IMG/VR virus record: IMGVR_UViG_3300009187_000058
Coordinates: 1 to 30,058 of that record
Length of the DNA stretch: 30,058 nucleotides
Reading direction: 5' to 3' (one strand)
From: a virus
The stretch's first letter is position 1; each line of letters begins with the position of its first letter. Of the stretch, positions 7,218 through 25,392 are shown in pieces. The notes under the pieces were generated by a model, which was not told the DNA's origin, searched no databases, and saw nothing but the letters and a program-made list of their open reading frames with translations. The position numbers were made by a program, and so were the translations under genes.

Positions 7218-10200
7218 ATGGCTTTTGGTATTAATGACAAAGAAGTTGAAGCAGCTCAAGCACCTACAACTGGGTTTGGTGTTAATGATAAAGCTGTCTC
7301 CTCTGTTCCAACTCCTGTTGAAACCCCACCAGTAGACTTAACTAAACCTGCTTTTCTTACGCCTCCTCAGAGAGCTACAAAATTAGTAGAAAGAGCAGCA
7401 AACATTCGTAAGGAAGAAGAACAGAAGATTCCTTTTGATGCTTTGTGGAAAGATGATAAGAATTTTAAAACCATCCAAGACTATGCTGCTGCTAGGTTTG
7501 GTAAAGAAGGTGTTCTTCTAGCAGGTGAAACAAAGGAAGACTTTGTCAATCGTTTTGCTACACACATGAAGAGGCTTGACTTTGGTAATGAGATTAATGC
7601 TGTAGGAGAACTACAGTATTTAAACAATGCTAAGCAAGAAGACATCTTAAAAGCTGGTGCAGCTTATGACTTGTTTAAAAACACTGCTGGTGTATTTGAT
7701 GAAAAGAACAGAGGACAAAAAGGTTTCCGTCCAGTGATGGATGCTATATCTAGTATTGCCAGTAGCCCATCAACTTTACTTACTTTAGGAACTGGTAAGA
7801 TTGTTAGTAGTGGTTTAACAAAACTAGCAGTTGAAAAAGGAACTAAAGCCGCACTCACTTCTGCCAAAGGTATTGGTATGGTTGCAGCAACTCCCGCTGT
7901 TGGAGGCGCTACTTCTGCTGCACAAGATGTTACTGGTCAGAAGATTGAACTCAATGTAACACAAGCTGAACTTGATCAAGCTAAGAAGATTGATCCAAAT
8001 ACACTTGATGCTGAAGGACAGGCTCAGCTTAAATCCTATATGGAGGAAAGACAGAAGAGACTGGAAGAAGGTGTTAGAGGTAAGCAGGTAGCTTTGGCTG
8101 GTGCTATTGGTGCTGTCACTGAGACAGCAGAGGTTCTACCATTTCTTCGTGGTGGAAAGAAGGGAGCAACTAGTCAGCTAGATGACATTCTTAAGGCTAG
8201 AAAGAAACCCGCAGCAGGAGAACCAACTACACCTGCACCTAAGATTGAAGTTACTCCTAAAGATCCTACAGATAAAGTATTAGAAGATGCTTATGATATC
8301 TACGAAGGACGTAAACTTCTTGATGCTCAGGGACAGCCAACATCTGTAGCACAGATGGAAGTTAGAACTGATCTTAATAAAAGAGCTACACTAATTGCTC
8401 AGGACATCTGGCAACAAATGCCTGAGCTTGCTCCTAAAGCTACAGAGAAAGTCTCTGATGCTATTAAACGCACCCTTGAATCTGTAGATACATTTGATGA
8501 TGTTGTATTTGAAAGAGCGTTAGCCTCTGCTGATGTAACACCAGATGAGTTTGCTAAGATGTTTAGAACTTCAGCAGGTGATGCTGGACGTTCTTTACAA
8601 AGCTTGTCTGTAGTTGCTCGTCTTCAAAACAAATTAAAAAACATTGATCCTGCTGCTGCTGCAGAACTTAACAAGATGTATGGCGATAGAAGCGCTATCA
8701 CTTCAGCTTTCACTGGTGTTAAAGACTTTGGCATGCGTCTTGATAGAGAGTTAAAAGCCTTAATGGTATCTCAGCTTTCTACTACCATCCGCAATGCATT
8801 CTCTGGTTTGGCTGTTGTTACTTTTGGTACAGCAGCAGAAGCCATTGAATCTTCTTTATATCGTATTGGTAAGACAGCAGGTGAGCTAGCTACTGGTAAG
8901 CCAGTTACAGGTAGCTTTACTGGTGGCTTGAAGGGTGTCTATGATGATGCTGTTCGCTCTGCTTTCTATTTAGGTCAGCGAGACTTGTCTTCTGAAGTGA
9001 CAGAAACTTTGTTAAATGGAACTCCTGCTTTGTATAGAAAGATGATTAAGACAACAGGTGAAGCTGGTCCTAATGATTTGTCTAAAGCAGCACAAATTGC
9101 TAACACATTCAACGTAGCGCAGGATGCTTTCTTCCGTAAAGCTATGTTCACTTCTTCAGTGGAAAAGCAGTTGAGTCGTGTAGGTATTAACATGTATGAT
9201 GTTATTGCACAAGGCAAGCAAGTACCTTTTGATGTGCTACAGAATGCTGTTAATGAAGCTCTTAGCGGTACATTTAGTAAGATGCCTACCAAAGGACCAA
9301 TGTTCCACGCTGTAAAATTTGTAGAAGAACTTGGCCCTATTGGATCTACAGTGATTCCTTTTCCTCGCTTCATGGCTAATGCTATGGATTGGACATATAA
9401 GCACATGCCTACTGGTGTGTTATCTGGAAGTACAGACATTGCTGCTGGCTTAACTAAAATAGCTAAAGGCGATGACTTAGGAACTAAACAACTTACTTTA
9501 GGTTTAGAGAACTTCTCTAAAGGTACTGTGGGAACTGCTGCTGTTTATGCTGCTTATAAATATAGACAAGAACATCAAGACAATGAATGGTACAACATAA
9601 AGAATCCTGATGGTTCAACTGTAGATACAAGAGCTTTATTTCCTGCTGCTCCTTTCTTAGCTTTGGGTGACTACCTTGTTAAGTTTGAAAATGGTAGAAC
9701 AGATGAGTTTAAAGCTAAGGAATTTTTAGAAGCTATGACTGGTCTTAAAGCACCAGCAGGTACATACTCATGGCTTGGTGATAAGTTTGCTGAAGCACAG
9801 TCTAATGCTGCCACTGGTGAAGACACAGCTTCAAACAAAGTTAGTACATTCTTTGGTGAGTGGGTTGGTGAATACTTAGGTAGAGCACTTGTTCCTATTC
9901 AACAGATAAGTGACATTATTGGCGCAATAGACCGTAATGAGACATTGCCTAGAGATGCTTATCAGATTCCAGCAGGTAAAGAGGGATTTGCTTCCTCTGC
10001 ACAGAATCAATTGATGAAGCGTACTCCCGTGTTGAAGCAAGAGCTTCCAGTATATCAACCACCACTAAGAGAAACTGCCGCCTTCAATGACAATGGTCCA
10101 TTGAAGATGTTGTCTGGTATTGCTATTAAGGGTGTACCTTCTGTTCTTGAAGAAGAAGTTGTTAGACTAAAAGTACCTAACAATAAAATATTTACTAGCA

Positions 10201-12260
10201 CTGGTGATAAGATTGTAGATGCTGATGCTCGTAAGATTATGGCTCCTCTAGTTGTAGAGCAGTTTGATAATCTTAAGAAGACAAGCTTCTATGCAGAAGG
10301 CAGCCAAGACCTACAGAAGGTAGCTCTACAGAATTTGATTGGATGGGCGCAGAATACAGCTAAAGAAATTGCAACTAACAAGTCTGAAGCAGCGGCTTAT
10401 GCTGTTGGTAAGCAGCCTCGCTTGTACGAAGTACAATATTCTAAATTAGCTCCTGAGCTTAAGCGTGTTGTCACTGAGACATACAAACAACAACAAGGTA
10501 AAGACTTAGCCACCACTAAAGACTATGCAACTGCACTGGCCTATGCTGAAGCTATGAGGGCTTTACCGGGCTATGCCTATGGTGGTGTAGTACACATGGA
10601 TTTGGGTGGTGCTGTAGCTAAGAAGGTGGTGAGTGAAACTGTTGAAGCTGGTTTAAAAAAGGGAGCATTATCTCTAGGTGAGATTGTTGCTAAGCATACA
10701 GTGGCTCCTGCTGTGGAGCAGACAGCACAGGTATTAGCTACTCCTGTAGTTAAAGAGAGTGCTACTTCTGTTATGGCAAAGATGCCGTACATCAAGAACA
10801 AGTATGGTCCTGCTGTTTCTAAGCCAGTGGAAGAGGCTGCTCCAATAGTTAAGCAGATGGAAGAAGCTATTCCTGAAACTGTTCCAGCAAAGATTGAAGA
10901 GCCACTTCCTGAAATTAAAACAGATCTTCCACCGCCAGAACCATCTATCTACACTACACCAGTAGCTACTATTGAGAATTTAAATAAACCAAAGTTTGGG
11001 TTTGATGAAGAAGTTAGGAAGAACACTTTGTCTAGCATTAAGGTTCTTAGACAAGAATCTTTTAATGCTGTTAAAGATGTTCCTGAATTTGCGGGTATTG
11101 ACCCAAGTGCTATCGCTGTAGCTCAGGGTGAATATAGAGTTAAGGTTGGAAGAGAATTTAATGCAGACAGCCCTGCAGATGTAGCAGAATTTGCAGACTT
11201 TGCTAAAGGATATCAAAAGAAACTAGAAGATTTGAGAGAGCAATATAAAGATATGCCTCCAAAGATTTTAATTCATGGTACTGAAACAGAAAGAACACCT
11301 TCTAAAGTTAAACGTGGTTTCTTTGATCCACAAACAATCGAGCATAAGAAACATATGGAGCTAGATGTTGGTGCAACATCTTTCACCAGTGACCTTAGAC
11401 TTAACTATCGCAATGAACCTTTTGGTGGGCCAGTTGTTAAGAACATCTCATACACTGAGATTCCTTACGCTGATTATATATTTAGAAAAGTAGATATGCC
11501 ATTAGACGCATATACTAAGAAGGATATGAATACCATTGCTAGAACAATTACTGGCGATCCTACAGTGGCTAGACCATTAGGACTACCACGCAACTTAGGC
11601 TATAAAGAAACTGAAGATGCTTTTGTTGAGAGCGAGAAGCTTACTATTCAAACTGACTTCAATAAAATTGAGAAGCAGTATAAGTTAATTGAACAGCAAG
11701 AAAATATTAGAAACAGATTTACCAATAAACTTTTGGATGTGGTAAATAAAACTGATAAAGATGGTCTTACTTTAATTGATAACATTAAAAATTCTACTGA
11801 AAAATCTACAGATGTTTATGACGTATATAACACCATCAAGAGATTATTTAAAAATGAGTTTAGACACACTGGTGAAGCTGCTGCTACAAAAGCTGGAATG
11901 CTTCCAGTACCAGATAGCAACCAAACATTTATTAGTTCATTAAGTAAACTAGCTAAGACCACCAATGTAGAAGTTATTGATGCTATCTATTCATCTTTAA
12001 ACAAATCAGGATCTACAGATAAAGCATTGGCCCTACAAGAACTAAGTAAGAATCTTAAAACAATTCAAACAATTCCTACTTATGTGCCACCAAATACAAG
12101 CCCAGCAGACATAGCTAATTTAATTGATATGCAAACTAAAGCCGCTAATAACATTAGAGATTTGATTGGTAATGACTTTAAGATTGTTGATCCTAACAAT
12201 CCTAAGAACACTAGAAGAATCGGCTTAGCTAAGGGAGGCTTAGCTAGCCGTAGAAACTAA
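7218..12260 (+). CDS. Giant virion/ejection-type protein with ADP-ribosyltransferase-like C-terminal domain
   Basis: A 1680-residue protein, the largest in the window and the last late gene. The N-terminus has two FGxNDKxV copies (3-10, 20-27). Residues about 30-1100 are mainly helical, with hydrophobic stretches near 178-240 and 510-560 that suit a DNA-ejection protein. A motif YGGVVHMDLGGAV (1121-1133) precedes a Pro/Glu/Ala-rich linker (about 1190-1260). The C-terminal domain has ILIHGTE (H1353, G1354, T1355), GATSFTSDLRLNY (1385-1397) and VESE (E1471, E1473). Their order resembles the H-Y-E-type ADP-ribosyltransferases found in some phage polyvalent proteins, although the usual Tyr is replaced by Thr/Ser. 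A helical tail ends LAKGGLASRRN. Virion role and ART activity are inferences. No clear Shine-Dalgarno precedes the start, which lies 2 nt after the previous stop. Confidence 0.65.
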   Translation: MAFGINDKEVEAAQAPTTGFGVNDKAVSSVPTPVETPPVDLTKPAFLTPPQRATKLVERAANIRKEEEQKIPFDALWKDDKNFKTIQDYAAARFGKEGVLLAGETKEDFVNRFATHMKRLDFGNEINAVGELQYLNNAKQEDILKAGAAYDLFKNTAGVFDEKNRGQKGFRPVMDAISSIASSPSTLLTLGTGKIVSSGLTKLAVEKGTKAALTSAKGIGMVAATPAVGGATSAAQDVTGQKIELNVTQAELDQAKKIDPNTLDAEGQAQLKSYMEERQKRLEEGVRGKQVALAGAIGAVTETAEVLPFLRGGKKGATSQLDDILKARKKPAAGEPTTPAPKIEVTPKDPTDKVLEDAYDIYEGRKLLDAQGQPTSVAQMEVRTDLNKRATLIAQDIWQQMPELAPKATEKVSDAIKRTLESVDTFDDVVFERALASADVTPDEFAKMFRTSAGDAGRSLQSLSVVARLQNKLKNIDPAAAAELNKMYGDRSAITSAFTGVKDFGMRLDRELKALMVSQLSTTIRNAFSGLAVVTFGTAAEAIESSLYRIGKTAGELATGKPVTGSFTGGLKGVYDDAVRSAFYLGQRDLSSEVTETLLNGTPALYRKMIKTTGEAGPNDLSKAAQIANTFNVAQDAFFRKAMFTSSVEKQLSRVGINMYDVIAQGKQVPFDVLQNAVNEALSGTFSKMPTKGPMFHAVKFVEELGPIGSTVIPFPRFMANAMDWTYKHMPTGVLSGSTDIAAGLTKIAKGDDLGTKQLTLGLENFSKGTVGTAAVYAAYKYRQEHQDNEWYNIKNPDGSTVDTRALFPAAPFLALGDYLVKFENGRTDEFKAKEFLEAMTGLKAPAGTYSWLGDKFAEAQSNAATGEDTASNKVSTFFGEWVGEYLGRALVPIQQISDIIGAIDRNETLPRDAYQIPAGKEGFASSAQNQLMKRTPVLKQELPVYQPPLRETAAFNDNGPLKMLSGIAIKGVPSVLEEEVVRLKVPNNKIFTSTGDKIVDADARKIMAPLVVEQFDNLKKTSFYAEGSQDLQKVALQNLIGWAQNTAKEIATNKSEAAAYAVGKQPRLYEVQYSKLAPELKRVVTETYKQQQGKDLATTKDYATALAYAEAMRALPGYAYGGVVHMDLGGAVAKKVVSETVEAGLKKGALSLGEIVAKHTVAPAVEQTAQVLATPVVKESATSVMAKMPYIKNKYGPAVSKPVEEAAPIVKQMEEAIPETVPAKIEEPLPEIKTDLPPPEPSIYTTPVATIENLNKPKFGFDEEVRKNTLSSIKVLRQESFNAVKDVPEFAGIDPSAIAVAQGEYRVKVGREFNADSPADVAEFADFAKGYQKKLEDLREQYKDMPPKILIHGTETERTPSKVKRGFFDPQTIEHKKHMELDVGATSFTSDLRLNYRNEPFGGPVVKNISYTEIPYADYIFRKVDMPLDAYTKKDMNTIARTITGDPTVARPLGLPRNLGYKETEDAFVESEKLTIQTDFNKIEKQYKLIEQQENIRNRFTNKLLDVVNKTDKDGLTLIDNIKNSTEKSTDVYDVYNTIKRLFKNEFRHTGEAAATKAGMLPVPDSNQTFISSLSKLAKTTNVEVIDAIYSSLNKSGSTDKALALQELSKNLKTIQTIPTYVPPNTSPADIANLIDMQTKAANNIRDLIGNDFKIVDPNNPKNTRRIGLAKGGLASRRN

Positions 12261-12275: not shown

Positions 12276-12445
12276 AGATATCTTTCCATGTTATCAAAGT
12301 AAGCCCTGTCAAAGCCCCGCTGCCATTCTTTACCAGCCACTGACACTGGATCATATTGATTTACAATCCATCCATGTCTAAAGGCTTTATAGCCCTGTTC
12401 AAATTGAATGCGTAGTGGAGCAGAACGCTCTGGTTTATAATTCAT
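12272..12445 (-). CDS. RMF-like 57-aa protein
   Basis: A 57-residue open frame fills the gap between the two arms. It starts with ATG at 12445-12443 in an ATGA overlap with the nuclease gene upstream. The protein (from MNYKPERSAP) contains FEQGYKAFRHG, then NQYDP, then EWQRGFDRAYF. The order Gly-Tyr-x-Ala...Gly, Asn...Tyr-Asp-Pro, Trp-x-x-Gly-(Phe/Trp)-x-x-Ala is that of the ribosome modulation factor / CrpP family of small basic proteins. RMF dimerises ribosomes in E. coli; a phage copy might act on host translation, but similarity is limited to this pattern. The overlap and sensible composition support it as a real gene. Confidence 0.6.
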   Translation of the reverse strand: MNYKPERSAPLRIQFEQGYKAFRHGWIVNQYDPVSVAGKEWQRGFDRAYFDNMERYL

Positions 12446-12918
12446 GGTTTCTCTTTCAACATAGAAATCTTTAGATTATAGCAGTCACTCTTCACTGTGT
12501 ATCCATTGCTATCATCTACTTGTCCTTTCTTCATGAACACAGCATCTTCCATATATTGCTGCTTGTCATACACCCCTAAATACCAACCAACAGAGAAGTT
12601 GTTCTTCACCCTAACAAAGCAATAGTAGTCACACTTTTGCTTTGTATTCAGGGCAGCAATGGAACAGTCATATGTATCCAAGGGTTTAACACTAGTCTGC
12701 TTGGTCTTAACATCCACTGTTTTACCGCTGTCTAAAACTAAGTCATAGTCATAGGTGTTATCTAGTTTACCGCCCAACACTTGCTGAGCTATAGCTTCAC
12801 CAATAAATCCAGCAATATTACCAGCCCCATTCATAATGGAGTTGTAAAGTCTTCCCATCTCTACAGCTTTATCTCTAGCTTCTACAAGCATAGTGGGTGT
12901 TACAACAATTTCAATCAT
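12442..12918 (-). CDS. PD-(D/E)XK-type nuclease
   Basis: A 158-residue protein with a nuclease-fold signature. GFIGEAIAQQVLG (38-49) supplies E41, DYDLVLDSG supplies D57 and D59, and VDVKTKQ supplies D69-x-K71, the (D/E)xK pair that binds metal. The overall pattern (GxxGE, then D, then DxK) resembles restriction-endonuclease-like enzymes. In length it is close to T7 endonuclease I (149 aa), which has the same fold, so a role in junction resolution or host DNA breakdown is possible but not shown. It is downstream of nrdB in the same operon. It overlaps its upstream neighbour by 8 nt and the RMF-like gene by 4 nt. Confidence 0.65.
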   Translation of the reverse strand: MIEIVVTPTMLVEARDKAVEMGRLYNSIMNGAGNIAGFIGEAIAQQVLGGKLDNTYDYDLVLDSGKTVDVKTKQTSVKPLDTYDCSIAALNTKQKCDYYCFVRVKNNFSVGWYLGVYDKQQYMEDAVFMKKGQVDDSNGYTVKSDCYNLKISMLKEKP

Positions 12919-13105
12919 TAGTTCTAACCATCTTTCCTATCTCATCAAACTCACCCATGTAAATACTAATGAAGGGGAGTTTAATTAATATACCGCAATA
13001 GGAAAATAGTTTATCATAAGGTCCACCATCGTCAATGATGTGGCATATGTTCTCATTATATTCAATATCAAGCCCAATGCCTTGTCTAAATTCTACAACT
13101 ATCAT
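12911..13105 (-). CDS. Small hypothetical protein after nrdB
   Basis: The start is put at ATG 13105, where it forms an ATGA overlap with the nrdB stop. A start 15 nt earlier is possible but lies deeper in nrdB. The protein has 64 residues (MIVVEFRQGIGLDIEYN...), with beta-strand-like hydrophobic segments (LPFISIYMG), and is acidic in its first half. No domain is recognised. Its position between nrdB and a nuclease suggests a part in nucleotide or DNA metabolism, without direct evidence. Confidence 0.55.
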   Translation of the reverse strand: MIVVEFRQGIGLDIEYNENICHIIDDGGPYDKLFSYCGILIKLPFISIYMGEFDEIGKMVRTND

Positions 13106-14061
13106 GCTGCTTTCCCCCATACATCATCCCATGTACCTGTTTGAGCGCCCTTGCTGTAGTCTGTTACACGTTGTTCAAAGAAGTTGGTGTGACTAACACC
13201 AAGCATACCATCCACCCACGGCAGAGGATTCTTCTTAATCTTATAGATGCCTTTCATCCCCATAGAGATGAGTCTACGATCTGCAATATATCGTATATAC
13301 TGTTTCACTTCTTCTTTCGTGAGCTTCTCGACTTCAACCATGCTAAATGCCAGATCCACAAATTGATCTTCAAGACCAACCATTTGATCTGCAATTTCCT
13401 TAATACGATCCGAAGTTGTCTCATCTTTGTGATGTTTAACATATTCACGATACACCTTAATCATGCCTTCAGCATGCTGAGTTTCGTCCACAATAGACCA
13501 AGCAATGATTTGGCCCAACCCTTTAAGTTTACCATTCCTTGCAAAGTTTAACAACATAACAAAACTAGAAAATAACTGCATGCCTTCACCAAAAGCAGAG
13601 ATGGCAGCAATCTTCTCAGCCATTGGTGCTTCATTCAAGTTGTTAATGTAGTTGTGCTTCTCCACCATCTCTTTATATTGGAGAAACTCATTGTATGTAG
13701 ACTCTGGTAAGCCTAATGTTTCAATGAGGTGAGCATAGGCGGCTACATGCAGGGCTTCCCTGCTTGCAAAACCACTCATCATCATTCTTACTTCCGGCTG
13801 TTTAAATATTGGAATGTAATGGTCATGATAACCACTGCCAATGTCTAAGTCACCCTGTACAAAGAAGCGTAATATCTTTGTTAAAAACTCTTGCTCTTCT
13901 TTACTTAGCTTCTTATAGTCTTTAACATCCTCAGACATAGAAACTTCTGTATGAAGCCAATGACTTTGCTCATGCTGCAGCCAAGCATCATATGCCCAAG
14001 GATATTTAAAGGGTTTAAATGTTGTGCGCTCTTGCGTAATATCTTCTTTAGTCTTTACCAT
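13102..14061 (-). CDS. nrdB: Ribonucleotide reductase class I, small (radical) subunit
   Basis: A 319-residue NrdB/R2 protein that stores the tyrosyl radical and passes it to NrdA to make deoxynucleotides. Counted from M at 14061, the metal ligands are visible as D71 (GDLDIG), E102 and H105 (REALH), E159 (FGEGMQ), and E193 and H196 (DETQH). Y109, four residues after H105, fits the radical tyrosine. The N-terminus KPFKYPWAYDAWLQHEQSHW is typical. The start is chosen because TTGGAG lies about 8-12 nt upstream; an open frame continues to 14130 but adds 23 residues of no family likeness. It lies after nrdA with an 81-nt leader holding a hairpin. Confidence 0.93.
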   Translation of the reverse strand: MVKTKEDITQERTTFKPFKYPWAYDAWLQHEQSHWLHTEVSMSEDVKDYKKLSKEEQEFLTKILRFFVQGDLDIGSGYHDHYIPIFKQPEVRMMMSGFASREALHVAAYAHLIETLGLPESTYNEFLQYKEMVEKHNYINNLNEAPMAEKIAAISAFGEGMQLFSSFVMLLNFARNGKLKGLGQIIAWSIVDETQHAEGMIKVYREYVKHHKDETTSDRIKEIADQMVGLEDQFVDLAFSMVEVEKLTKEEVKQYIRYIADRRLISMGMKGIYKIKKNPLPWVDGMLGVSHTNFFEQRVTDYSKGAQTGTWDDVWGKAA

Positions 14062-14099
14062 TACCAATGTCTCCAAGTGTTTGCAATGATGTGAATACA

Positions 14100-14118
14100 G
14101 GTGATCATTTCGACCACC
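14100..14118 (-). promoter_or_regulatory. Hairpin in the nrdA-nrdB spacer
   Basis: On the - strand the sequence GGTGGTC, GAAAT, GATCACC folds into a 7-bp stem with one G-U pair and a 5-nt loop. It sits in the 81-nt space between the nrdA stop and the nrdB start, about 40 nt before the nrdB ATG. No T-run follows, so it is more likely an RNA stability or processing element than a terminator. Confidence 0.4.
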
Positions 14119-14142
14119 CGCATTCCCCAATATAAAAGCTTT

Positions 14143-15921
14143 TTACTCACAGGCCAAACAAGTTTCGCCCTCTGCCACCTGCTTCAAATCAATATCATCT
14201 TCAATCTTTTGACGTTTGATTTGAGCGCCCACCTTATCTGCTTTTCTTACCTTCTCTGAGCGAAGATAGTATAAGCTTTTTAGCCCACTCTTCCAAGCAA
14301 GGAAATGAATGGCATGCAGATATTTAATGGATACATTAGCAGGAAAGAATAGGTTAATGCTCTGCCCTTGATCAATATATTTCTGACGATCTGCTGCAAG
14401 TTCAACCAACCAACGCTGATCAATTTCCATAGCAGTCTTAAACACTTCCTTCAATTGCTCAGGAATGTCTAGGTGCTGTACAGATCCTTCATTGCTGATA
14501 ATGGATGCCCATGTGTCATCATCATCCATGTCCAACTCAGCAAGCTTTGCTTTCAAGAACCTATTCTTATAGACGAACGCTCCACTAAGTGTATCTTGTC
14601 TAAATACATTCGCTCTGTACGGCTCAACTGAAGGGCTAGTATTGCCCATGATAAGGCTGCTACTGGCATTAGGAGCAATAGCAGTGTGATGACTAAACCT
14701 TCTACTAACATTATGGTGACCAGCATCGATGCAACTCCCACGCTGCCTATCCAAGACAGCATCAGCCCGTAAACACGAAGCATGTATATGCTTAAATATT
14801 TCATTGTTATAACTTTTAGCCATCACTCCATCGATAGCTATACCTTTCTTTTGTAAAAAAGCATGGAAGCCTAGCGCACCTACGCCAATGCTACGTTCCA
14901 TTAATGCACTGTATTTAGCTCTAGCAATTGTTGGTGGTGCTTTATCAATAAAATATTGCAACACATTATCTAGCATTTCCATAACATCTAGAATGAATTG
15001 GTTATCATTTTTCCACTCATCATAGTATTCTAAGTTGAGAGAAGACAGACAACAAACTGCTGTTCGCTTTTCATTTGTTGGCAAGAAGATTTCTGTACAC
15101 AAATTGCTACCATTAATTTTTAATCCCTTATCTTTCAACCATATAGGCAAAGCCTTATTAGCTGTATCAATGAAGACTAAGTATGGCTCACCAGTTTGCA
15201 TACGAAGGTCCAGTATTTTCTGCCACAAATACTTAGCAGACACTGTCTCAACAACCTCTTTAGTAGCTGGGTTTCTTAATGAAAAACTATCATCAAAGTC
15301 TGGATCTTTCATGGCATTCTCAATGATGGTCATAAATTCATCAGTGATGTTAATGCCATGATGCAGATTTAATGTGCGTACATTCTGATCACCAGTAGGC
15401 TTACGCATCTCCAAGAACTGGATGATGTCTGGGTGGTGAATGTCTAGATAGGCAGCATAGCTGCCCCGTCTTGTACGTCCTTGACGGTAGGCCAATGAGC
15501 TAGCATCGTAGATCTTAAGGTGGGGCATAACACCAGTAGACTTGTCATCACTATTGCGGATACCCACATGCACACCGACACCACCACCATACATGGATAA
15601 CCAGTTAGTTTCTGATAGGTTATCAACCAATCCTTCTGCACTGTCATCCATATAATTAAGGAAGCAGCTAATAGGGAGTCCACGCTTAGAGCGACCAAAA
15701 GATAAAATAGGCGTAGAGTAACTAAGCCAGTGCTTGCTGCTGTAGTCATATAGTCTTTGAGCGTGTTCTTGGTTTGAAGCAAATGATTCTGATACATAAG
15801 CAAATCTTTCTTGAGGACTAACTTCTTCCTCTTTCATATAACTTTCTCGGAGTCTCTGAATACCTAATTCATCAAACAAACTATCCCTAGACAGGTCAAT
15901 GTTGACCTTAAACTTTGTCAT
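14143..15921 (-). CDS. nrdA: Ribonucleotide reductase class I, large (catalytic) subunit
   Basis: A 592-residue NrdA that reduces ribonucleotides. Key residues are present: C86 (ISCFLN); N273, C275 and E277 (NLCTE), the active-site trio; C290/C291 (VCCLSSLN), which include the partner of the C86 disulfide; and a C-terminal CLACE with C588 and C591 to accept electrons from thioredoxin or glutaredoxin. APNASSSLIMGNTSPSVEP is a family hallmark. The N-terminal ATP cone is missing, making it shorter than E. coli NrdA (about 760 aa). This is usual in phages and would remove dATP feedback inhibition. TTAGGA precedes the ATG by about 7 nt. A strong terminator lies just upstream. Confidence 0.95.
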   Translation of the reverse strand: MTKFKVNIDLSRDSLFDELGIQRLRESYMKEEEVSPQERFAYVSESFASNQEHAQRLYDYSSKHWLSYSTPILSFGRSKRGLPISCFLNYMDDSAEGLVDNLSETNWLSMYGGGVGVHVGIRNSDDKSTGVMPHLKIYDASSLAYRQGRTRRGSYAAYLDIHHPDIIQFLEMRKPTGDQNVRTLNLHHGINITDEFMTIIENAMKDPDFDDSFSLRNPATKEVVETVSAKYLWQKILDLRMQTGEPYLVFIDTANKALPIWLKDKGLKINGSNLCTEIFLPTNEKRTAVCCLSSLNLEYYDEWKNDNQFILDVMEMLDNVLQYFIDKAPPTIARAKYSALMERSIGVGALGFHAFLQKKGIAIDGVMAKSYNNEIFKHIHASCLRADAVLDRQRGSCIDAGHHNVSRRFSHHTAIAPNASSSLIMGNTSPSVEPYRANVFRQDTLSGAFVYKNRFLKAKLAELDMDDDDTWASIISNEGSVQHLDIPEQLKEVFKTAMEIDQRWLVELAADRQKYIDQGQSINLFFPANVSIKYLHAIHFLAWKSGLKSLYYLRSEKVRKADKVGAQIKRQKIEDDIDLKQVAEGETCLACE

Positions 15922-15940
15922 AAATATTCCTAACAGGCGG

Positions 15941-15963
15941 TAAAAAAAGGAGCCGAAGCTCCT
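15941..15963 (-). terminator. Rho-independent terminator with TTCG loop before nrdA
   Basis: Read on the - strand, AGGAGC, TTCG, GCTCCT forms a 6-bp stem closed by a stable UUCG tetraloop, followed by a run of seven T that partly includes the last stem base. It lies after the 54-aa gene and 20 nt before the nrdA start. It should stop or lower transcription coming from the replication genes, so nrdA must depend on read-through, antitermination or a promoter I cannot recognise. Confidence 0.85.
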
Positions 15964-15983
15964 AAAGGAAAGGTAGTTATACC

Positions 15984-18163: not shown

Positions 18164-18348
18164 TAAGCAACTTCTTCAACCACCACTGGTACTGTATCAG
18201 CGGCTGCTGCTTCTGCTGCTTGTAGTTGTTCAGATCCCTGCTGTCGGATAACAGCAATGGTGTCTGTAACAGCTTCAAAAGGAAGCTTAGCAAGTGCTGC
18301 CAAGACCAAGTTAAGTTGGTCCAATGTCAATGTGATATTCAAATTCAT
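18163..18348 (-). CDS. Small acidic/alanine-rich protein, function unknown
   Basis: A 61-residue protein. Residues 1-40 form a likely helical pair (LTLDQLNLVLAALAKLPF, then EAVTDTIAVIRQQ), followed by an Ala/Glu/Val-rich tail (AAEAAAADTVPVVVEEVA). It starts in an ATGA overlap with the SSB gene and ends in TAATG with the exonuclease. No family is recognised. Its position between SSB and exonuclease hints at a replication accessory role. Confidence 0.65.
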   Translation of the reverse strand: MNLNITLTLDQLNLVLAALAKLPFEAVTDTIAVIRQQGSEQLQAAEAAAADTVPVVVEEVA

Positions 18349-18764
18349 AATACGTCCTCATCGTTTGCATCAATACCGCTAGCAGCGGAATACTCTACCA
18401 AGTCTGTAATGACCAGCTTCTTTAATGAAGGGCTAATACCTTTTTTATTCTTGTAAGTCCAAGAATATGTAGATACCAACGCCTTACCCTTGCTACCATT
18501 GCCAATGGCTTCAGTAATTTCATCGTTGTCTGTATCAAAAACACGAATGGCTTTCTCTGATTTGCAAGTGATGTACTTGCCCATGTCAGCCTTCTTGTCT
18601 TCTCCAGTTTGAACACTGATTCCCATATCTTCCAATGCTTCAACAGCAGCGTCAGACAGGTTGCACAAGTTCAACTGAAACTTACCAGACATGTCATTCA
18701 CTTTATTGTGTTGACACCAGAACACATCAGCTTTAATCTTGATGGCTTTCTTTTCTTCAGTCAT
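18345..18764 (-). CDS. Single-stranded DNA-binding protein, gp2.5-like
   Basis: The start is ATG 18764 (MTEEKKAIKIKADVFW), with TTGGAG about 8 nt upstream; an in-frame TTG 12 nt earlier lies on the ribosome site itself. The 139-residue protein has a beta-rich body (KFQLNLCNLSD, KYITCKSEKAIRVFD, LVITDLVEY) and a strongly acidic C-terminus (DANDEDVL). That layout is the hallmark of T7 gp2.5-type SSBs, whose tail contacts polymerase and helicase. Sequence likeness to gp2.5 is weak, so the call rests on size, tail and position between DNA polymerase and exonuclease. Confidence 0.7.
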   Translation of the reverse strand: MTEEKKAIKIKADVFWCQHNKVNDMSGKFQLNLCNLSDAAVEALEDMGISVQTGEDKKADMGKYITCKSEKAIRVFDTDNDEITEAIGNGSKGKALVSTYSWTYKNKKGISPSLKKLVITDLVEYSAASGIDANDEDVL

Positions 18765-18797
18765 AATTTTCTCCAATATAAAAACTCACTAGTAACG

Positions 18798-20513
18798 TCA
18801 GTGACATTCACGCCAGTTGTTGCCAATCTTTCCTTCGGCATCTACTGGGCAACGAAACTTAAGAGCTTCCCCTGCTTTAGTTGCAGCTTGCTCGATGAGC
18901 TTAACTGCTTCCTCTGCCTGATCTTCTCTTACTTCCCATTGTGTTTCATCATGAACAAACGCTAACAGTTTAGCATCTATTCTATTTTCTTGCAATAGAT
19001 TTGTTGCTTCAATAAGCCATTGTTTTGCTATTATAGCACCTGCACTTTGCAACAATGTATTCAATGCAGCATGCTCAGATCTAACCCACACTCTGCGTCC
19101 ATCCAGTGCAGGTAAATGTCCCTTAGCCATCAGCCTAGATATCTTCTTCTTCAATGCAGAAAGTCCGGGCGTATTGTTAATAAAACTATCAATTAGTTTC
19201 TTACCTTTGCTGCTATTTCCACCAACAATACTTCCAGCTTTGGCTGCTCCTGCTCCGTAGAGCACTCCATATGTCAGAGTTTTTGTGGTGTTTCTAGCCT
19301 TCTTATGTTCAGGATTGTTATCGTCCTTGATAGTACCCTTCTCCACCAAGCCAAAACTCTGTGCATTAAACCAATGGATATCACCCTTAAGCAGCTCATC
19401 CATCCACTCTTGGTCATTCAGGTAGTGGCCTAAGCAGCGAAGCTCAATGCCTGATAGATCAACACCCACTTGCTTGTAGCCTTTAGGCACTGTCCACACC
19501 TCCCTACACTCTGCTCCATAGGGGTTACCCACTGCAGGTATCTGTGCCATGTTAGGGCTACTGTGTGTAGCTCTACCAGTGACAGCACCATTGGTAGTAA
19601 CTCTACCATGCACTCTGCCATCATCACCCACTAGTTCTAACCAACTACTTATCTGAGCTACACGCTTTTGTATCATCAAATACTCAGCAATTATTTGACC
19701 CTCTGGGAACACAACACCCTTCAAAGTGTCCTCATCCACTATAGGTTGACCCGTTGGGGTCATTTTATTTGGCTTCCATCCAAGGTGGATAAGCCTATCA
19801 CCAATTTGCTGTCTACTTCCGGGATTGAATATGGTTACTTTGTCCTTGAGCTGCTTGCCTGTCTTCTCAGACACACGCTGTTCAATAATAGGAGGGAATA
19901 CCTTCTGCATTTCCTCTTCAATGTCAGACATACGTCCACTCAATGTTGCATTAAGCACCATAGCTTTCTCAATGTCTAACATGAAGCCATTGTTTTCCAT
20001 TCCTCTACAGATGATGGCAACCTCATGCTCAAGCTGAATGCTTTGTAGTGAAAACCCTTCCTTCACCATCACTGTGGATAGGTGGTTATATAGTTTCTCA
20101 AGCAGCAACACATCCTGCTCACAGTAGGTAGCCATCTCTTGTGTCCATCCACTGTCGAAGTCAGTGAAGCCAATCTTGTAGCTGCCTAAGCGGTAGCCCC
20201 ATGCCTCAAGACTGTGAGGAGTAGGGGCTTTGCCCGATACAGGCACGACAATATCAATGTCGGGCTTGTACAGGCGTGACATAACAAGAGTATCTACTAA
20301 CATGTTGTTAGGAATGACTACACCCCATACCTTCTTAAGCACTGGTGCATCAAATCCAATGATGTTATGGCCCACCACTTGCTCACCATCTAAGTATTGT
20401 TGCAAACTGTCGGCTTCCCGCCAGTGCCTCACCTCTCCAGTAGTGTTGTGCTTAGTAACACACAACCATATGGTGTCATGTTTCAGGTTTGTCTCTATGT
20501 CTAAGAAGATCAT
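18798..20513 (-). CDS. DNA polymerase, family A, with 3'-5' exonuclease
   Basis: A 571-residue T7 gp5-like replicase. Counted from the start at 20513, exonuclease acids are D5 and E7 (FLDIETN) with GHNIIGFD near 48-55 and YCEQD (D134). Polymerase motif A is GVDLSGIELR (D352), motif B is RNTTKTLTYGVLYG (R407, K411, Y415), and motif C is VHDE (H521, D522, E523). The motif B tyrosine at the ribose-selectivity position is as in T7. The ATG at 20513 has AAGGA 8 nt upstream; ATG 20519 is possible, and upstream codons look non-homologous. It overlaps the gene upstream by 38 nt. At 571 aa it is shorter than T7 gp5 (704). Confidence 0.95.
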   Translation of the reverse strand: MIFLDIETNLKHDTIWLCVTKHNTTGEVRHWREADSLQQYLDGEQVVGHNIIGFDAPVLKKVWGVVIPNNMLVDTLVMSRLYKPDIDIVVPVSGKAPTPHSLEAWGYRLGSYKIGFTDFDSGWTQEMATYCEQDVLLLEKLYNHLSTVMVKEGFSLQSIQLEHEVAIICRGMENNGFMLDIEKAMVLNATLSGRMSDIEEEMQKVFPPIIEQRVSEKTGKQLKDKVTIFNPGSRQQIGDRLIHLGWKPNKMTPTGQPIVDEDTLKGVVFPEGQIIAEYLMIQKRVAQISSWLELVGDDGRVHGRVTTNGAVTGRATHSSPNMAQIPAVGNPYGAECREVWTVPKGYKQVGVDLSGIELRCLGHYLNDQEWMDELLKGDIHWFNAQSFGLVEKGTIKDDNNPEHKKARNTTKTLTYGVLYGAGAAKAGSIVGGNSSKGKKLIDSFINNTPGLSALKKKISRLMAKGHLPALDGRRVWVRSEHAALNTLLQSAGAIIAKQWLIEATNLLQENRIDAKLLAFVHDETQWEVREDQAEEAVKLIEQAATKAGEALKFRCPVDAEGKIGNNWRECH

Positions 20514-20673
20514 CGTCATTGTCCTTATCATTTTGTCGGAGGTTGTCAACATCTACCGACTGTTTGTAATCTTCTACTGAATCCCTACCAAAGATGGCAT
20601 TCCATCTAGTAGCCCATTCCTCATCAGCTATTGATCTGGTACGCTGAGCATGTCCCTTTCCATCATTACTCAT
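20476..20673 (-). CDS. Small charged protein before DNA polymerase
   Basis: A 65-residue, very polar protein (MSNDGKGHAQRTRSIADEEW...) with WATRWNAIFGRD in the middle and an Asp-rich stretch NDKDNDDD. It starts within an 8-nt overlap with the gene upstream and ends 38 nt inside the polymerase gene. No domain is recognised and its C-terminal part may be disordered. The overlap could couple its translation to that of the polymerase. Confidence 0.55.
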   Translation of the reverse strand: MSNDGKGHAQRTRSIADEEWATRWNAIFGRDSVEDYKQSVDVDNLRQNDKDNDDDLLRHRDKPET

Positions 20674-20902
20674 CCCAGTCCCCCCAATTCCACACCACTA
20701 CAGGTGTGTCCTTTCCTATGTATGCATTCTCAATGTTGAAGTTGATGTATTCAATGGCATCATCAGAAGACATACCATCTCTGATCATCAATTGTTCAAC
20801 CATCTTCTCACAATCATATACCAACACATCAACACGTTCATTACCAATCCAAAGATTGGCTGTGCCTATGATGGCACTATCAAATCCATCCCACTTCTTC
20901 AT
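20666..20902 (-). CDS. Conserved phage hypothetical protein
   Basis: A 78-residue protein whose pattern KKWDGFDSAIIGTANLW, VYDCEKMVEQLMIRDGMS, AIEYINFNIENAYIG and TPVVVW is one I recall from many phages, encoded next to replication genes. It is acidic and rich in Trp. Function is unknown in the family as far as I know. It begins in an ATGA overlap with the primase-helicase stop. Confidence 0.7.
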   Translation of the reverse strand: MKKWDGFDSAIIGTANLWIGNERVDVLVYDCEKMVEQLMIRDGMSSDDAIEYINFNIENAYIGKDTPVVVWNWGDWDE

Positions 20903-22512
20903 AGCATAAGTCCTTCCATTGTGTCATCAATCTCAAACATTCTGCCAGTGTCTTTGTTATAAAGCAAGCTGCAAGCAGGACCAGTTTGTCCTGCAAAACG
21001 ATTCTTCAACACTCTCACCTTAGTGGTGTTACGTTCAATGGGATCATCGTGCTGTCCATTCCTCTCTAGCGATATCACCATGTCACTAAGCTGTGCAATG
21101 GCGGCACTGCCTCTAAGCTGAGCTAAGCTAGTGGTTGCACCTTCCTCATGTCCCTTATCTGAGGGACGCTTGAGGTGGCTAACAATGATGAGAGCAATGT
21201 TTGTTTCTTGTACAAGCATGCGAAGCTTGGTCATAATTTCATCAATGGCCTTGCGCTCATCGCCATTGTCCTGACTGGATACGATGATGCTTAAGTGGTC
21301 TAAGAAGACATACTTACATCCAAGCCCTTTAGCCATATACTTCACACGATTGACAATGTTTTCAATGGCTGTGCTACCAAAGTGATCAAAGAAATACAAA
21401 CGCCCAGTGCCTAATGTCTTTTCAAATGCGTCCCTGCGTATAGCATCAGACACCACAGATGTTGGTAGATGTAGTGGTGTATCAGCAGCAAGACTCATCA
21501 TGGATAGGCTAGTCTTTCTCACGCTCTCTTCAAGAAACATCAAGCCAATGTTGTCATTGCTGTTCTGTAACAAGTGCCACACTATTTCTCGTAGAGTTTG
21601 GCTCTTACCTAAGCCACTACCTGCTGTGAATGTAACAAGCTCACCTGCTCTGATGCCATAGGTGATATCGTTGAGTCCCTTCCAAGGATAGAAACAGTCT
21701 GCTGCTTCCATCGGTGTAGACACAAGCTCCCATAACCCTACACCACTGACAATACCATCAGGAACGAAAGGCTCTGCTGCCCACCAACGGGCAATGAATG
21801 CAGACTCTTTGCTATCAGCAAGCCACTCACATGCATCCTTATATGCAGGGTCAGGTTTAAATATTTTGCACTTGCTACCAAACAATTCAGCAACTTCCTT
21901 AGCTGCCTTCTGCCCTGCCTCATCACCATCAAAGCAAAGCACAATGTTTTCAAAGCTGTTGATGTATTCGTAGTTTGCTTTAGCATCTTTCAATGCACTA
22001 CCTGCACCCGTGCGAATAGATACCACTGGATATTTACTGCCTGTCAATTGGTAAGCAGCCAGTGCATCAAACTCACCTTCAGTGATGGTTAAGTATTTGC
22101 CATTGGATGGGTATAGGTTCTGTCCAAACAGTGTTCCTTTGCTCCATCCACCAACAGTGGTGAACTTCTTGTCCTTCACTTCCCTACGCTTAGCTGCCAC
22201 CAGTTGTGTGTTGCTGTCATAGTAGGGGAAGTAGTAGTGTCCATCATTACGAACAACACCATAGCGTTCCATTGTGGCTTTGTTAATGCGTCTGTCAGAT
22301 ACACTAACACTGTGTCCTTCGTTGTAACTTTTAATGAAGCTACTTGTGTCTTTGTTATCACTATCAATGTCAATCACTTCTAGTCTTTCATTGTTGGTGG
22401 AAGGGATGTATGTATTACATACAAAACATTTGGTGGACATGTCTTCGTTGATGGACAAGCCATCACTACTACCACATGTCTCACAAGGTAGGTGAGTTTT
22501 TAAAAATGTCAT
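20899..22512 (-). CDS. Primase-helicase, T7 gp4-like
   Basis: A 537-residue bifunctional replication protein. A zinc-binding site is formed by C10, C13 (CETC) and C29, C32 (CFVC), which would read primer sites. The TOPRIM primase core has EGEFDALA (E145, E147) and CFDGDEAG (D195, D197). The helicase part has Walker A AGSGLGKS (297-304), a catalytic-type Glu in FLEES (326-330), Walker B KYVFLDHLS, and the SHLKRP and RGSAAIAQ motifs of DnaB/gp4 helicases. The acidic C-terminus (EIDDTMEG) may contact the polymerase. Length is near T7 gp4 (566). It overlaps the gene upstream by 32 nt. Confidence 0.95.
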   Translation of the reverse strand: MTFLKTHLPCETCGSSDGLSINEDMSTKCFVCNTYIPSTNNERLEVIDIDSDNKDTSSFIKSYNEGHSVSVSDRRINKATMERYGVVRNDGHYYFPYYDSNTQLVAAKRREVKDKKFTTVGGWSKGTLFGQNLYPSNGKYLTITEGEFDALAAYQLTGSKYPVVSIRTGAGSALKDAKANYEYINSFENIVLCFDGDEAGQKAAKEVAELFGSKCKIFKPDPAYKDACEWLADSKESAFIARWWAAEPFVPDGIVSGVGLWELVSTPMEAADCFYPWKGLNDITYGIRAGELVTFTAGSGLGKSQTLREIVWHLLQNSNDNIGLMFLEESVRKTSLSMMSLAADTPLHLPTSVVSDAIRRDAFEKTLGTGRLYFFDHFGSTAIENIVNRVKYMAKGLGCKYVFLDHLSIIVSSQDNGDERKAIDEIMTKLRMLVQETNIALIIVSHLKRPSDKGHEEGATTSLAQLRGSAAIAQLSDMVISLERNGQHDDPIERNTTKVRVLKNRFAGQTGPACSLLYNKDTGRMFEIDDTMEGLML

Positions 22513-22735
22513 AACCTTTGTAGACTATTTTGTTGGTCTTGAGCACTTGCTCGTATGCGTTAAACAGCTTAGCCATTCTAGCATCGTGAAGGGCATGTAG
22601 TCCAATTAATAAATTGGCTAGCTCATCCTCTGTTGGATTCTTTTCTCTATCCATCACCACCCACAGGATGGAGTCGATGTCCTCTTTAGTTATCCAAGCA
22701 GCCATGATGAGGTTTTCTAGTTCGTGTATCTTCAT
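22481..22735 (-). CDS. Conserved small helical phage protein
   Basis: An 84-residue helical protein. LENLIMAAWITKEDIDSILW, then NPTEDELANLLIGLHALHDARMAKLFNAYE, resembles a small family encoded before primase-helicases in other phages, from memory. No catalytic motif is clear. It starts in an ATGA overlap and runs 32 nt into the primase-helicase gene. Confidence 0.6.
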   Translation of the reverse strand: MKIHELENLIMAAWITKEDIDSILWVVMDREKNPTEDELANLLIGLHALHDARMAKLFNAYEQVLKTNKIVYKGYDIFKNSPTL

Positions 22736-22971
22736 GCTTGTCCCCTGTTACGGATGGCGAAGGCTGTTCCCCAATTAAGTTGCTTTTCTGCAATCCTTGC
22801 ACACGCCTCACGCTCAATCAGCACAGCGGCTTTGATGGCATCTGCTTCCCAATGGTAGGGCTGTCCCATTTCTCTAAGTATTTGTTTGCCAAGATTGCTG
22901 TTCCGTTCCACAGCATTAAAGGCTTCGTCTTCTTCTGGTGTCCAATCAGTCATGTGTTCTTCCCTATTCAT
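22732..22971 (-). CDS. Small acidic phage protein
   Basis: A 79-residue protein. The start at 22971 is favoured by GGAGG 7 nt upstream and the ATGA overlap; an internal ATG at 22953 (MTDWTPEEDEAF) also has AGGGAAG nearby, so two products are possible. The body EREACARIAEKQLNWGTAFAIRNRG resembles a helical tail found in many phage hypotheticals. Function unknown. Confidence 0.65.
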   Translation of the reverse strand: MNREEHMTDWTPEEDEAFNAVERNSNLGKQILREMGQPYHWEADAIKAAVLIEREACARIAEKQLNWGTAFAIRNRGQA

Positions 22972-23114
22972 TTTGCAGCCTCCAAATATAAACCAACATT
23001 ACCCAGTGCATAACCAATGAAAGCTATGCCTAATCCAATGTTTCCTTTCAGTAGTAGATCCACTGCCACCGCTGTATACACCACACCTACAATTGCAATT
23101 AGCCAAGCACTCAT
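22968..23114 (-). CDS. 48-aa two-TM membrane protein
   Basis: A 49-codon open frame reads from ATG 23114, with GGAGG 7 nt upstream, to TGA 22970-22968, with ATGA overlaps at both ends. The protein is almost all hydrophobic: SAWLIAIVGVVYTAVAV (2-18), a KGN turn, then GLGIAFIGYALGNVGLYL (27-44). GIAFIGYALGNVGLYL is a pattern I recall from many small phage membrane proteins. It would insert in the inner membrane during early infection. Function unknown. Confidence 0.7.
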   Translation of the reverse strand: MSAWLIAIVGVVYTAVAVDLLLKGNIGLGIAFIGYALGNVGLYLEAAK

Positions 23115-23281
23115 GACTTTTCCTCCACAAATTCTAGTGGTTGAAATTCTTTAAGCACTCTTGTTAATGCATTAATAAGTTCCCAGTCTTGATGTTCAGC
23201 ATCATGCTTAAGTTCATATTTAATTAACCATTCAAGTTGTTCAACAACAACTGCCTCTTGTTCCATCTGACTCAATGTCAT
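23111..23281 (-). CDS. 56-aa acidic helical protein
   Basis: A 57-codon frame fills the space between integrase and the membrane protein, with ATGA overlaps on both sides. MTLSQMEQEAVVVEQLEWLI is followed by KYELKHDAEHQDWELINAL and an acidic tail EFVEEKS. It is predicted to be mostly helix. No family is recognised. The GGAGG that serves the next gene lies inside its last codons. Confidence 0.65.
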   Translation of the reverse strand: MTLSQMEQEAVVVEQLEWLIKYELKHDAEHQDWELINALTRVLKEFQPLEFVEEKS

Positions 23282-24378
23282 ACTAGTCCTCTCATTTCCT
23301 GTGTCACTGTTGCACTACGCAAAGTGTTCTTGATGTATGGTGTTAGGCTCTGCGGTGTAGCATGACCTGACACTGACATGATGTTGGTGATGGGTACACC
23401 AGCCTCCACCATTTCTGTTATTGCTGTCCTTCGTAGGTCTTGCAATACTAGATCACTGGGGATGTTAGCCTCAGCCACAATTTGCTTAGCCACCCTAGAC
23501 AGATTGAATAAACTGTAGGGAAGTAGCCCACCCTTCCTATCAGGATTATTGGATGGTGCAATGTATTGCTGCCACCCAAACTCAGCATGCTGTTGCTTCA
23601 ACATGGTGAGAAGCCCAGTGCTTGTTGGTATAGACACTCTAGACCTGCGCTTGCTCTGCTCTAGATGCAACACACCCTTCTCTAAGTCTACCTGATCCCA
23701 TCTAAGCTTACGCATATCACCCATACGCTGTCCATATTCATAGGCCATCTGCACAATGAGTCCTACATTACGCCATTTGAATGTGCTGTAGGCAGTGTTC
23801 ATGAATGCTCTGACATCTTCCCTTGTCCACACAGTTCTTCGTGGCTTGTCTGCCCTTCTAAGCACCTTGCTAAAGGGATTGTGTGTGATGTAGCCATGAC
23901 GAATAGCAAAATTGAAGAGCAATCGATAGACAGCTAGTGTGTGGTTAGCTAGGCTAACACTGTGCTCAGCATGCTGTTCATATATCTTTTGACAATGCGG
24001 GGTAACTAAGCTACCTAGCTTACATTGATACAAAGGTATGCCATTGGCCTTGCTATCTTGCCATCCTTGTAAGTAATAAATGTAGTCACGCTGTGCCTTA
24101 ATACTGAGCTTGGTATAAGTGATGTTGTTCTTATACGCCTTGATAAGATCAACCACCTTCGTATCCTCTGATATATCTTTAAGATATCTAAGTTCTTTAC
24201 GCCAGTTGTCTAGCTGTGCGTTCAGCTCTTCAGCTAAAGCAAAGGCTTTAGATTTGTCAGTGCCTAATACACGCCTAGCCACCACCCCTGCATCCACTGC
24301 ATCCTGTGGTGGGTTGTAGCGATACTTGGTTATGCCTTCGGCAGCTTTGGCTAGTGTTACATAGCGAGGCAGTGTCAT
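23278..24378 (-). CDS. int: Tyrosine-type integrase
   Basis: A 366-residue site-specific recombinase. A SAM-like core-binding domain is visible at about 75-170 (DLIKAYKNNITYTKLSIKAQ; LANHTLAVYRLLFNFAIRHG). The catalytic domain has R218 (YGQRMGDMRKLRW), K243 (SKRRSRVSIP), R316 in LQDLRRTAITEM, H339 (SGHATPQSL) and the nucleophile Y348 (TPYIK). The first residue of the HxxR box is Gln313 instead of His, a change seen in active phage integrases. It is coupled by ATGA overlaps on both sides inside the replication operon. No repressor or obvious attP/tRNA fragment is seen near it. Confidence 0.93.
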   Translation of the reverse strand: MTLPRYVTLAKAAEGITKYRYNPPQDAVDAGVVARRVLGTDKSKAFALAEELNAQLDNWRKELRYLKDISEDTKVVDLIKAYKNNITYTKLSIKAQRDYIYYLQGWQDSKANGIPLYQCKLGSLVTPHCQKIYEQHAEHSVSLANHTLAVYRLLFNFAIRHGYITHNPFSKVLRRADKPRRTVWTREDVRAFMNTAYSTFKWRNVGLIVQMAYEYGQRMGDMRKLRWDQVDLEKGVLHLEQSKRRSRVSIPTSTGLLTMLKQQHAEFGWQQYIAPSNNPDRKGGLLPYSLFNLSRVAKQIVAEANIPSDLVLQDLRRTAITEMVEAGVPITNIMSVSGHATPQSLTPYIKNTLRSATVTQEMRGLV

Positions 24379-24563
24379 TCTTGTTCCCTTGCCTTCATCA
24401 TCTCTTCAGCAAACCAATAAGCTTTACTTGCTACTTCAGAATGTGGAATGTTCCACGCACTGGTCATCAGCACAGCCATAGCTTTAGCTGCAAAGTAGTC
24501 ACGCAGGGTCATGCCATCTTTGTATTGATCGGGGAACGCTGCTTCCATATCATTCTTTTCCAT
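24375..24563 (-). CDS. Conserved small phage protein (MTLRDYFAAKAM type)
   Basis: The start is ATG 24563, 5 nt after a perfect AGGAGG (24569-24574); ATG 24566 is closer than ideal. The 62-residue protein has GMTLRDYFAAKAMAVLMT in its middle, a pattern common in phage and prophage hypotheticals, and a helical C-terminus (VASKAYWFAEEMMKAREQE). Function unknown. It overlaps the ADP-ribosylglycohydrolase end by 14 nt and the integrase by 4 nt. Confidence 0.7.
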   Translation of the reverse strand: MEKNDMEAAFPDQYKDGMTLRDYFAAKAMAVLMTSAWNIPHSEVASKAYWFAEEMMKAREQE

Positions 24564-25392
24564 CATCACCTCCTAGTGCATAAAGTTTTTCAGCCATATC
24601 AATCAACTCATCCTTCTTCACTAGCTTGTCTAGCCATCTAGTGGGTATACCTTTCAAGCCATACTTACGCCCTGCCAACATGCCTGTCACTGCACCAACA
24701 GTGTCAGCGTCATAGCCTTTGTTAACTGCCATGATCAAAGCTTTCTCAAAGCTTGATGTTTCTCTCACACATTCCCATGCCATGTTGTATGTATACATGA
24801 TGCTTCCTGATGCATACACATCACGGAAGTGTTTGAGATAGTCGAAGTTGTCTTCTGCTTTACCTGACATAAGCTCAGCAACAAACCCTGCTATGTAATG
24901 CACAGTGTCTGCATTGCCATGTGTCATCAACGACACAGCAACACTCTGTGCCACAGCACTGGGCATGTTGTTGTGATTGGCAAGCACAACAGGAGCTACT
25001 CGCATGATAGATCCATTACCACTGGAGCTATAGCTACAGCTACCTGCATAGGGTTGTGTTGCTGTGATGCGGTCAATGGCTTCACTGCATGTTCTACCAA
25101 TGTCAAAGACATAATTGCGAGTACCAAAGTGACCAGTCTTCTTCCACATCTTGAAGTTCATGGCAATGTTCTCAGGATCAAAGCGTTTGCTGCTTATGTA
25201 TGCATCGGCAATAGCCACAGCCATAGCACCATCGTCTGTCCACTCTCCTTCGGCAGTGTTATGCACACCACCACCTTCCATCTCTGTCAATGTCTTTGAC
25301 ATCTCATGTGGTCTAACAAATTCCAATGGCGCACCCAGTGCATCACCAATGAAAAGACCCATGAACATACCAATTGCTTTATCTTGATGCAT
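24550..25392 (-). CDS. ADP-ribosylglycohydrolase (ARH/DraG family)
   Basis: A 280-residue protein of the ARH/DraG fold, which removes ADP-ribose from proteins, nucleic acids or small molecules using two metal ions. Family marks are FIGDALGAPLEF (14-25), EWTDDGAMAVAIADA with T52, D53, D54 as metal ligands, GNGSIMRVAP (125-134), and KGYDADTVGAVTGMLAG with D228, D230 and T231 as the second metal site. All key residues look intact, and length (280) fits DraG-like enzymes. It may undo host ADP-ribosylation aimed at the phage, or erase marks made by the phage itself. It shares one base (TAATG) with the gene upstream. Confidence 0.93.
   Translation of the reverse strand: MHQDKAIGMFMGLFIGDALGAPLEFVRPHEMSKTLTEMEGGGVHNTAEGEWTDDGAMAVAIADAYISSKRFDPENIAMNFKMWKKTGHFGTRNYVFDIGRTCSEAIDRITATQPYAGSCSYSSSGNGSIMRVAPVVLANHNNMPSAVAQSVAVSLMTHGNADTVHYIAGFVAELMSGKAEDNFDYLKHFRDVYASGSIMYTYNMAWECVRETSSFEKALIMAVNKGYDADTVGAVTGMLAGRKYGLKGIPTRWLDKLVKKDELIDMAEKLYALGGDDGKE

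Follow-up and report, generated by a model that had tools for sequence, protein, structure and literature searches.

Why would a phage carry a putative ADP-ribosyltransferase (ART) in a large virion-type protein and, far away on the other strand, a gene for an enzyme of the kind that removes ADP-ribose? This question is raised by IMG/VR contig IMGVR_UViG_3300009187_000058, whose 30,058 bases (the whole stretch of DNA analyzed) are referred to here as the window. The virion-type protein (7218..12260, plus strand; 1680 amino acids) ends in a C-terminal module with an ART-like domain, and the second gene (24550..25392, minus strand) encodes a 280-residue ADP-ribosylglycohydrolase (ARH) of the ARH/DraG type. 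An initial annotation had placed both genes at these positions, which are supported by open reading frames (ORFs) at exactly these coordinates, and had asked whether the two form an attack-and-erase pair. The genes are approximately 13 kb apart on opposite strands, and so lack the adjacency of typical effector-immunity pairs. On balance, we lean towards the interpretation that the C-terminal module is an ADP-ribosyltransferase effector and that the distant hydrolase is its cognate antagonist, limiting or undoing its ADP-ribosylation.

The family assignment of the hydrolase is supported by its match to Pfam PF03747 (ADP_ribosyl_GH; E-value: 5.7e-55, 187.5 bits, curated cut-off 26.2) and by its active-site residues. 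The binuclear metal-ligand motifs, identified by sequence comparison, are both present (T52-D53-D54, with the D53-D54 pair at 25231..25236, and D228-A-D230-T231 at 24700..24711, minus strand), as is the TH motif described in PMC9503650 (T157-H158; 24919..24924, minus strand). In an alignment of 64 phage homologues, residues D53, D54, T157, H158, D228, D230 and T231 are unchanged, and the intact metal sites originally claimed for this enzyme are thus confirmed. The protein also matches solved ARH, Tri1 and DraG structures in a sequence search of the PDB; its best relative there is presumably a Thermus ARH, and the second-best match, 6dre, is taken by us to be Tri1. No bacterial relatives were found in a scan of genome contigs. 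In nearly all relatives with both flanks present, the gene is located between DUF932 and integrase genes. As read from its sequence, gene 24550-25392 encodes a member of the ADP-ribosylglycohydrolase family, for which hydrolysis of ADP-ribose adducts is predicted.

The ART-like domain was modelled over 191 amino acids (11166..11738, plus strand). The AlphaFold2 (AF2) model, built from an alignment of 53 relatives over which residue invariance was also counted, has a predicted local distance difference test score (pLDDT) of 91.8 and a predicted template modelling score (pTM) of 0.82; with 18 sequences and the C-terminal module in full length, AF2 gave a pLDDT of approximately 30 in the ART region, too low to be informative. 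In a fold search of the PDB with the domain model, made without a decoy control, all of the 50 best matches are enzymes with the ADP-ribosyltransferase fold (split beta-sheet), including the diphtheria toxin catalytic domain, the RES toxin of an Xre-RES system (the second-best match), tankyrases and exotoxin A. Hits in the viral fold library BFVD include a homologue with 44% identity, labelled as a "large polyvalent protein associated domain" protein, and the virion RNA polymerase (vRNAP) of a Roseobacter phage. From alignment and model together, invariant residues are found in the first modelled strand (H37-G38, expected ART motif I; 11274..11279), in the second (S72-F73-T74, expected motif II; 11379..11387) and around a late strand at 150-153 (E148, E150, D151 and E155, which would include a candidate catalytic acid; 11607..11630), all on the plus strand. 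When looked for, an ART-like fold was found, in that the AF2 model matches ARTs. An ART-like fold is supported, and transferase activity is predicted from the model.

The module that contains this domain was delimited by sequence comparison and extends over residues 1267-1680 (11016..12257, plus strand) as a helical lead, the ART-like domain and a helical tail. Its parent protein is encoded by the last gene of the structural arm. The middle of the protein has homologues at the same place in HMO-2011 (phage1322_22) and in Roseobacter phages, and the core (residues 440-900; 8535..9917, plus strand) is common to HMO-2011 and Roseobacter CRP-345. This position and homology suggest that the protein is late and packed in the virion; Pfam and PHROGs scans of it gave no useful match. 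The HMO-2011 and Roseobacter CRP versions are shorter and do not have the C-terminal module. In one sub-group of relatives the module is instead its own gene directly downstream, with its own start codon, and so it can be considered a detachable unit. In seven such records (L267, L268, L269, L270, L175, L166 and L164) it is an ORF of 612-687 amino acids right behind the core ORF, mostly in a different frame; these ORFs start with TTG or ATG, and several have a GGGGAT-type ribosome-binding site. The large protein at the corresponding place in Pelagibacter phage HTVC103P (gp52; L257:19146-24161) is without the ART domain. Judged by eye, its C-terminus has methyltransferase-like and lysozyme-type domains, and because this end looks different, cargo may be swapped at this position. 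The core of the protein itself occurs in at least two deeply split types (approximately 39% identity) over the same early-gene backbone, which indicates free recombination between the virion and replication arms.

Among genomes of at least 50 kb, picked through either gene, the ART-like module and the hydrolase occur together in 18 of 18 relatives, and both are missing from 13 of 13 outgroup genomes (12 marine HMO-2011-type records of 49-57 kb and Pelagibacter phage HTVC103P). Fragments below 47 kb were not counted as exceptions (G020, G021, G022, G028 and G030, with the ART domain and no hydrolase, and G029, with the reverse). Strict co-occurrence is thus supported, and the presence and absence of the two features, which the initial annotation had asked to be compared across relatives, are not independent. 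Presence and absence alone are weak evidence, because each group forms one clade and a single ancestral event is possible. Allele co-variation was therefore examined by mirror-tree tests.

Divergence matrices of all gene families were compared across 28 genomes. With the C-terminus of the ART-bearing protein set aside, ART-domain divergence correlates best with the hydrolase (r=0.75); the second-ranking gene reaches 0.62, the integrase that flanks the hydrolase 0.58 and the core of the ART-bearing protein 0.25. In 89% of bootstraps over genomes, the hydrolase holds the first rank among 20 widely shared families. By Spearman rank over all 28 genomes this lead is gone (0.59, the same as gene 5821-7215), but it is clear when the most divergent group is excluded: over the remaining 19 genomes the hydrolase reaches 0.73, and no gene of another protein exceeds 0.57.

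The signal of shared ancestry was removed by limiting the comparison to 16 contigs with a single backbone (integrase at least 88% identical). In this backbone-matched set, the ART and hydrolase alleles remain associated (Mantel r=0.72, p=0.0002), and ten other genes or segments show no co-variation with the ART domain (r from -0.16 to 0.05). These ten are the integrase, the core and N-terminus of the large protein, primase, polymerase, both ribonucleotide reductase (RNR) genes, exonuclease, single-stranded DNA-binding protein (SSB) and one more gene. When the three most divergent contigs are dropped, the association persists (r=0.39, p=0.005), as it does in a version with n=11 (r=0.42, p=0.0045). 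Specific allele co-variation is supported by these values.

Paired replacement of the two loci can be seen directly. Contigs 3300031758_000430 and G025 are 99% identical in integrase, 98% in polymerase and approximately 99% in the core, compared with 67% in the hydrolase and approximately 46% in the ART domain. In a blastn comparison, two stretches are exchanged, each between conserved flanks: the C-terminal module, at contig bases 11311-13133, and the hydrolase region, at 26786-28251. A few further blocks differ, chiefly close to the left end of the contig. The module and hydrolase blocks are likewise exchanged between G005 and G025. The replacing alleles (type II) are present in three contigs, the third being 3300020048_000818, with ART domains 95-98% and hydrolases 96-100% identical. 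Since versions of both genes travel together and the genes between them do not, these data suggest a matched working pair. Co-variation and paired replacement favor a functional coupling of the ART module and the hydrolase; of the attack-and-erase proposal, the coupling is thereby strengthened, and the erasing step would be plausible.

Several observations weigh against this interpretation. No ART family of Pfam matches the window domain or any of its 53 homologues, a PDB sequence search with the domain gave no match, and the fold scores are modest (best E-value: 2.4e-3; TM 0.41-0.46 for the best matches and 0.32-0.46 over the 50), such that the ART-like domain first proposed is upheld by fold and not by profile. 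In terms of the H-Y-E/D triad, H37 and E148/E150/E155 are invariant, but strand 2 reads S72-F73-T74, with no clear tyrosine. The partial correlation of the hydrolase with the ART domain is 0.29 given the lead and -0.14 given the tail (n=15); the co-varying unit is the entire C-terminal module, from whose lead and tail the ART domain is inseparable in these data. Matching is also not strict, as the hydrolases of the window and G018 are 98% identical and their ART domains 57%. The type II alleles of the three contigs may derive from one transfer. Lastly, the target of the hydrolase could instead be ADP-ribosylation made by the host.

This last point can be extended into an explanation of the whole pattern, which we regard as unlikely yet deserving of attention. 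The hydrolase would remove ADP-ribose put on by host anti-phage ARTs (DarT-like or others), independently of the phage ART-like domain, and the linkage would arise because both track host type. It has been proposed that phage ADP-ribosylglycohydrolase (ARG) domains could counter bacterial immune ADP-ribosylation (PMC9503650), and both modules could follow the host if a given defence went with the need for a given effector. However, such counter-defence predicts that other host-facing genes co-vary as well, and in the backbone-matched set 0 of approximately 30 others co-vary with the ART domain.

An account in terms of hitch-hiking, in which the two genes were acquired jointly on a single occasion and a few shared recombination events, with no functional matching, produced the allele association, appears improbable. 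The near-identical type II pairs could come from one donor, and a single event fits all of the presence/absence data. Against this, the loci are separated by 13 kb in which RNR, polymerase, primase and integrase were not replaced, the association persists without type II (p=0.005), and a second common allele pair is found in G002, G024 and 3300047297_000085.

It is very doubtful that the domain is a RES-type NADase or NAD phosphorylase whose soluble ADP-ribose product is processed by the hydrolase: although a RES toxin ranks second among the fold matches, diphtheria toxin and PARP folds score about equally, and macromolecular ADP-ribose conjugates are considered the preferred substrates of ARG domains (PMC9503650). 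An inactive structural relic alongside a hydrolase with an unrelated housekeeping role would suit the missing Pfam match and modest fold scores but is scarcely credible, given that the histidine, SFT and acidic residues are invariant over 53 divergent sequences and that the domain co-varies with the hydrolase and is retained in 28 of 28 genomes (polymerase 19, RNR 20).

The interpretation as effector and antagonist has precedents in known systems. Tre1 and Tri1 are a type VI effector ART and an immunity protein of the ARH fold (PMC7827354), and the action of Bxa, an ART of a Bacteroides prophage, is reversed by the hydrolase BAH as immunity protein (Bxa/BAH/Bsi; PMC11699363). Cronobacter phage S13 (NC_028773) has, by annotation, an Alt-like ART gene beside an ARH gene (gp048/gp049), and in Aeh1 a PARP-like ORF is numbered next to an ARH ORF (PMC1524935). 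By analogy with these cases, a pairing of effector and antagonist would be a natural reading of the window. The initial remark that no such phage system was known needs to be qualified in view of S13, Aeh1 and Bxa/BAH.

The likenesses are partial. Tre1/Tri1 resembles the present pair in joining an ART with an ARH-fold antagonist, but Tri1 also sequesters Tre1, and the present genes are phage-borne and unlinked. Residue 4 of the hydrolase aligns to residue 70 of Tri1, so the phage protein is without the approximately 66-residue N-terminal part of the solved Tri1 chain; this extension is taken to be the part able to block the effector active site, and enzymatic removal is therefore favored over sequestration. 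Bxa/BAH is likewise a phage-borne ART with a reversing hydrolase, whereas Bxa/BAH/Bsi includes immunity genes of a released toxin; in the window, the module belongs to a virion-type protein and the hydrolase gene is part of the replication arm. The module resembles T4 Alt and the Alt-like protein of S13 in that it would be a phage ART delivered together with the DNA, as the T4 analogy suggests; as in S13, an ARH is encoded in the genome as well. In S13, however, the genes are adjacent, annotation-based and in a 182-kb T4-like phage, whereas the ART-like module here is inside a podovirus virion-type protein, belongs by fold to another ART branch and is 13 kb from the hydrolase gene. Polyvalent proteins are one setting in which ARTs carried in virions, akin to PARP and to the diphtheria/cholix type, have been described (PMC5512222). 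The present domain is like these (e.g. the vRNAP of Roseovarius Plymouth podovirus 1) in its very large virion-type protein and unlike them in matching no ART Pfam model and in having SFT in place of an obvious strand-2 tyrosine. A DraG-like ARH was reported in 2022 from five metagenomic HMO-2011-type subgroup I genomes, with its function called unclear (PMC9038755). This is very likely the same gene as the hydrolase described here; the passage of that paper concerned with it gives no partner, and the ART-like module and co-variation are additions of the present analysis.

The proposed model for the interaction of the two proteins is as follows. The transferase would enter the cell with, or soon after, the phage DNA and would ADP-ribosylate host macromolecules. 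The hydrolase, expressed from the replication arm, would strip ADP-ribose, which would confine the modification to a limited period and spare the infected cell or lysogen harm from injected or newly made transferase. The enzymatic activity of both proteins, the delivery, the timing and the action of the hydrolase on the product of the transferase are the predicted parts of this model. The hydrolase may end the effect of the injected enzyme, shield the producing cell from new enzyme or shield a lysogen. The lysogen is considered because an integrase gene adjoins the hydrolase gene; the HMO-2011-type phage CRP-3 integrates (PMC9038755). A further-reaching version can be put forward only tentatively, as it may well prove wrong: each allele of a virion-delivered ART of abundant aquatic podoviruses would have its counterpart among the alleles of an unlinked hydrolase, by which the marks of the transferase are reset or confined. 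The phage would thus be both writer and eraser of an ADP-ribosylation programme of its own, possibly permitting lysogeny or guarding lysogens against superinfecting relatives.

The window belongs to a relative of the HMO-2011-type podoviruses, as judged from the middle part of the large protein, which is related to HMO-2011 and Roseobacter CRP phage proteins. The left-hand arm (plus strand) encodes a lysozyme and large virion-type proteins, and the right-hand arm (12442-30019, minus strand) encodes RNR, exonuclease, SSB, polymerase, primase/helicase, integrase, the hydrolase and the DUF932 protein. The labels early and late for these arms are predictions from gene layout alone. In the backbone-matched set, the ART domain shows no co-variation with the genes on either side of the hydrolase, which encode a tyrosine integrase (23278..24378, minus strand; adjoining the hydrolase gene in nearly all relatives) and the DUF932 protein (25629..26471, minus strand), or with the core region. 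The RNR of the window (13102-15921) is encoded by two genes of the NrdA/NrdB type; HMO-2011 has a B12-dependent RNR annotated instead (L256:9699-11642). Relatives of the DNA polymerase (18798-20552) are present in 19 of the 28 genomes and of the class I RNR in 20, and hydrolase, integrase and ART domain are each present in all 28. Gene 5821-7215, directly upstream of the large protein gene, is highly variable, with 31% identity between the window and G005 despite 89% identical cores.

Phage-encoded ARHs were already known, in this group since 2022, and co-variation now names a specific partner candidate in the same genome. If the model is true, relatives of a dominant marine phage group would encode an ART/hydrolase pair with one partner in a virion-type protein and the other in the replication arm.
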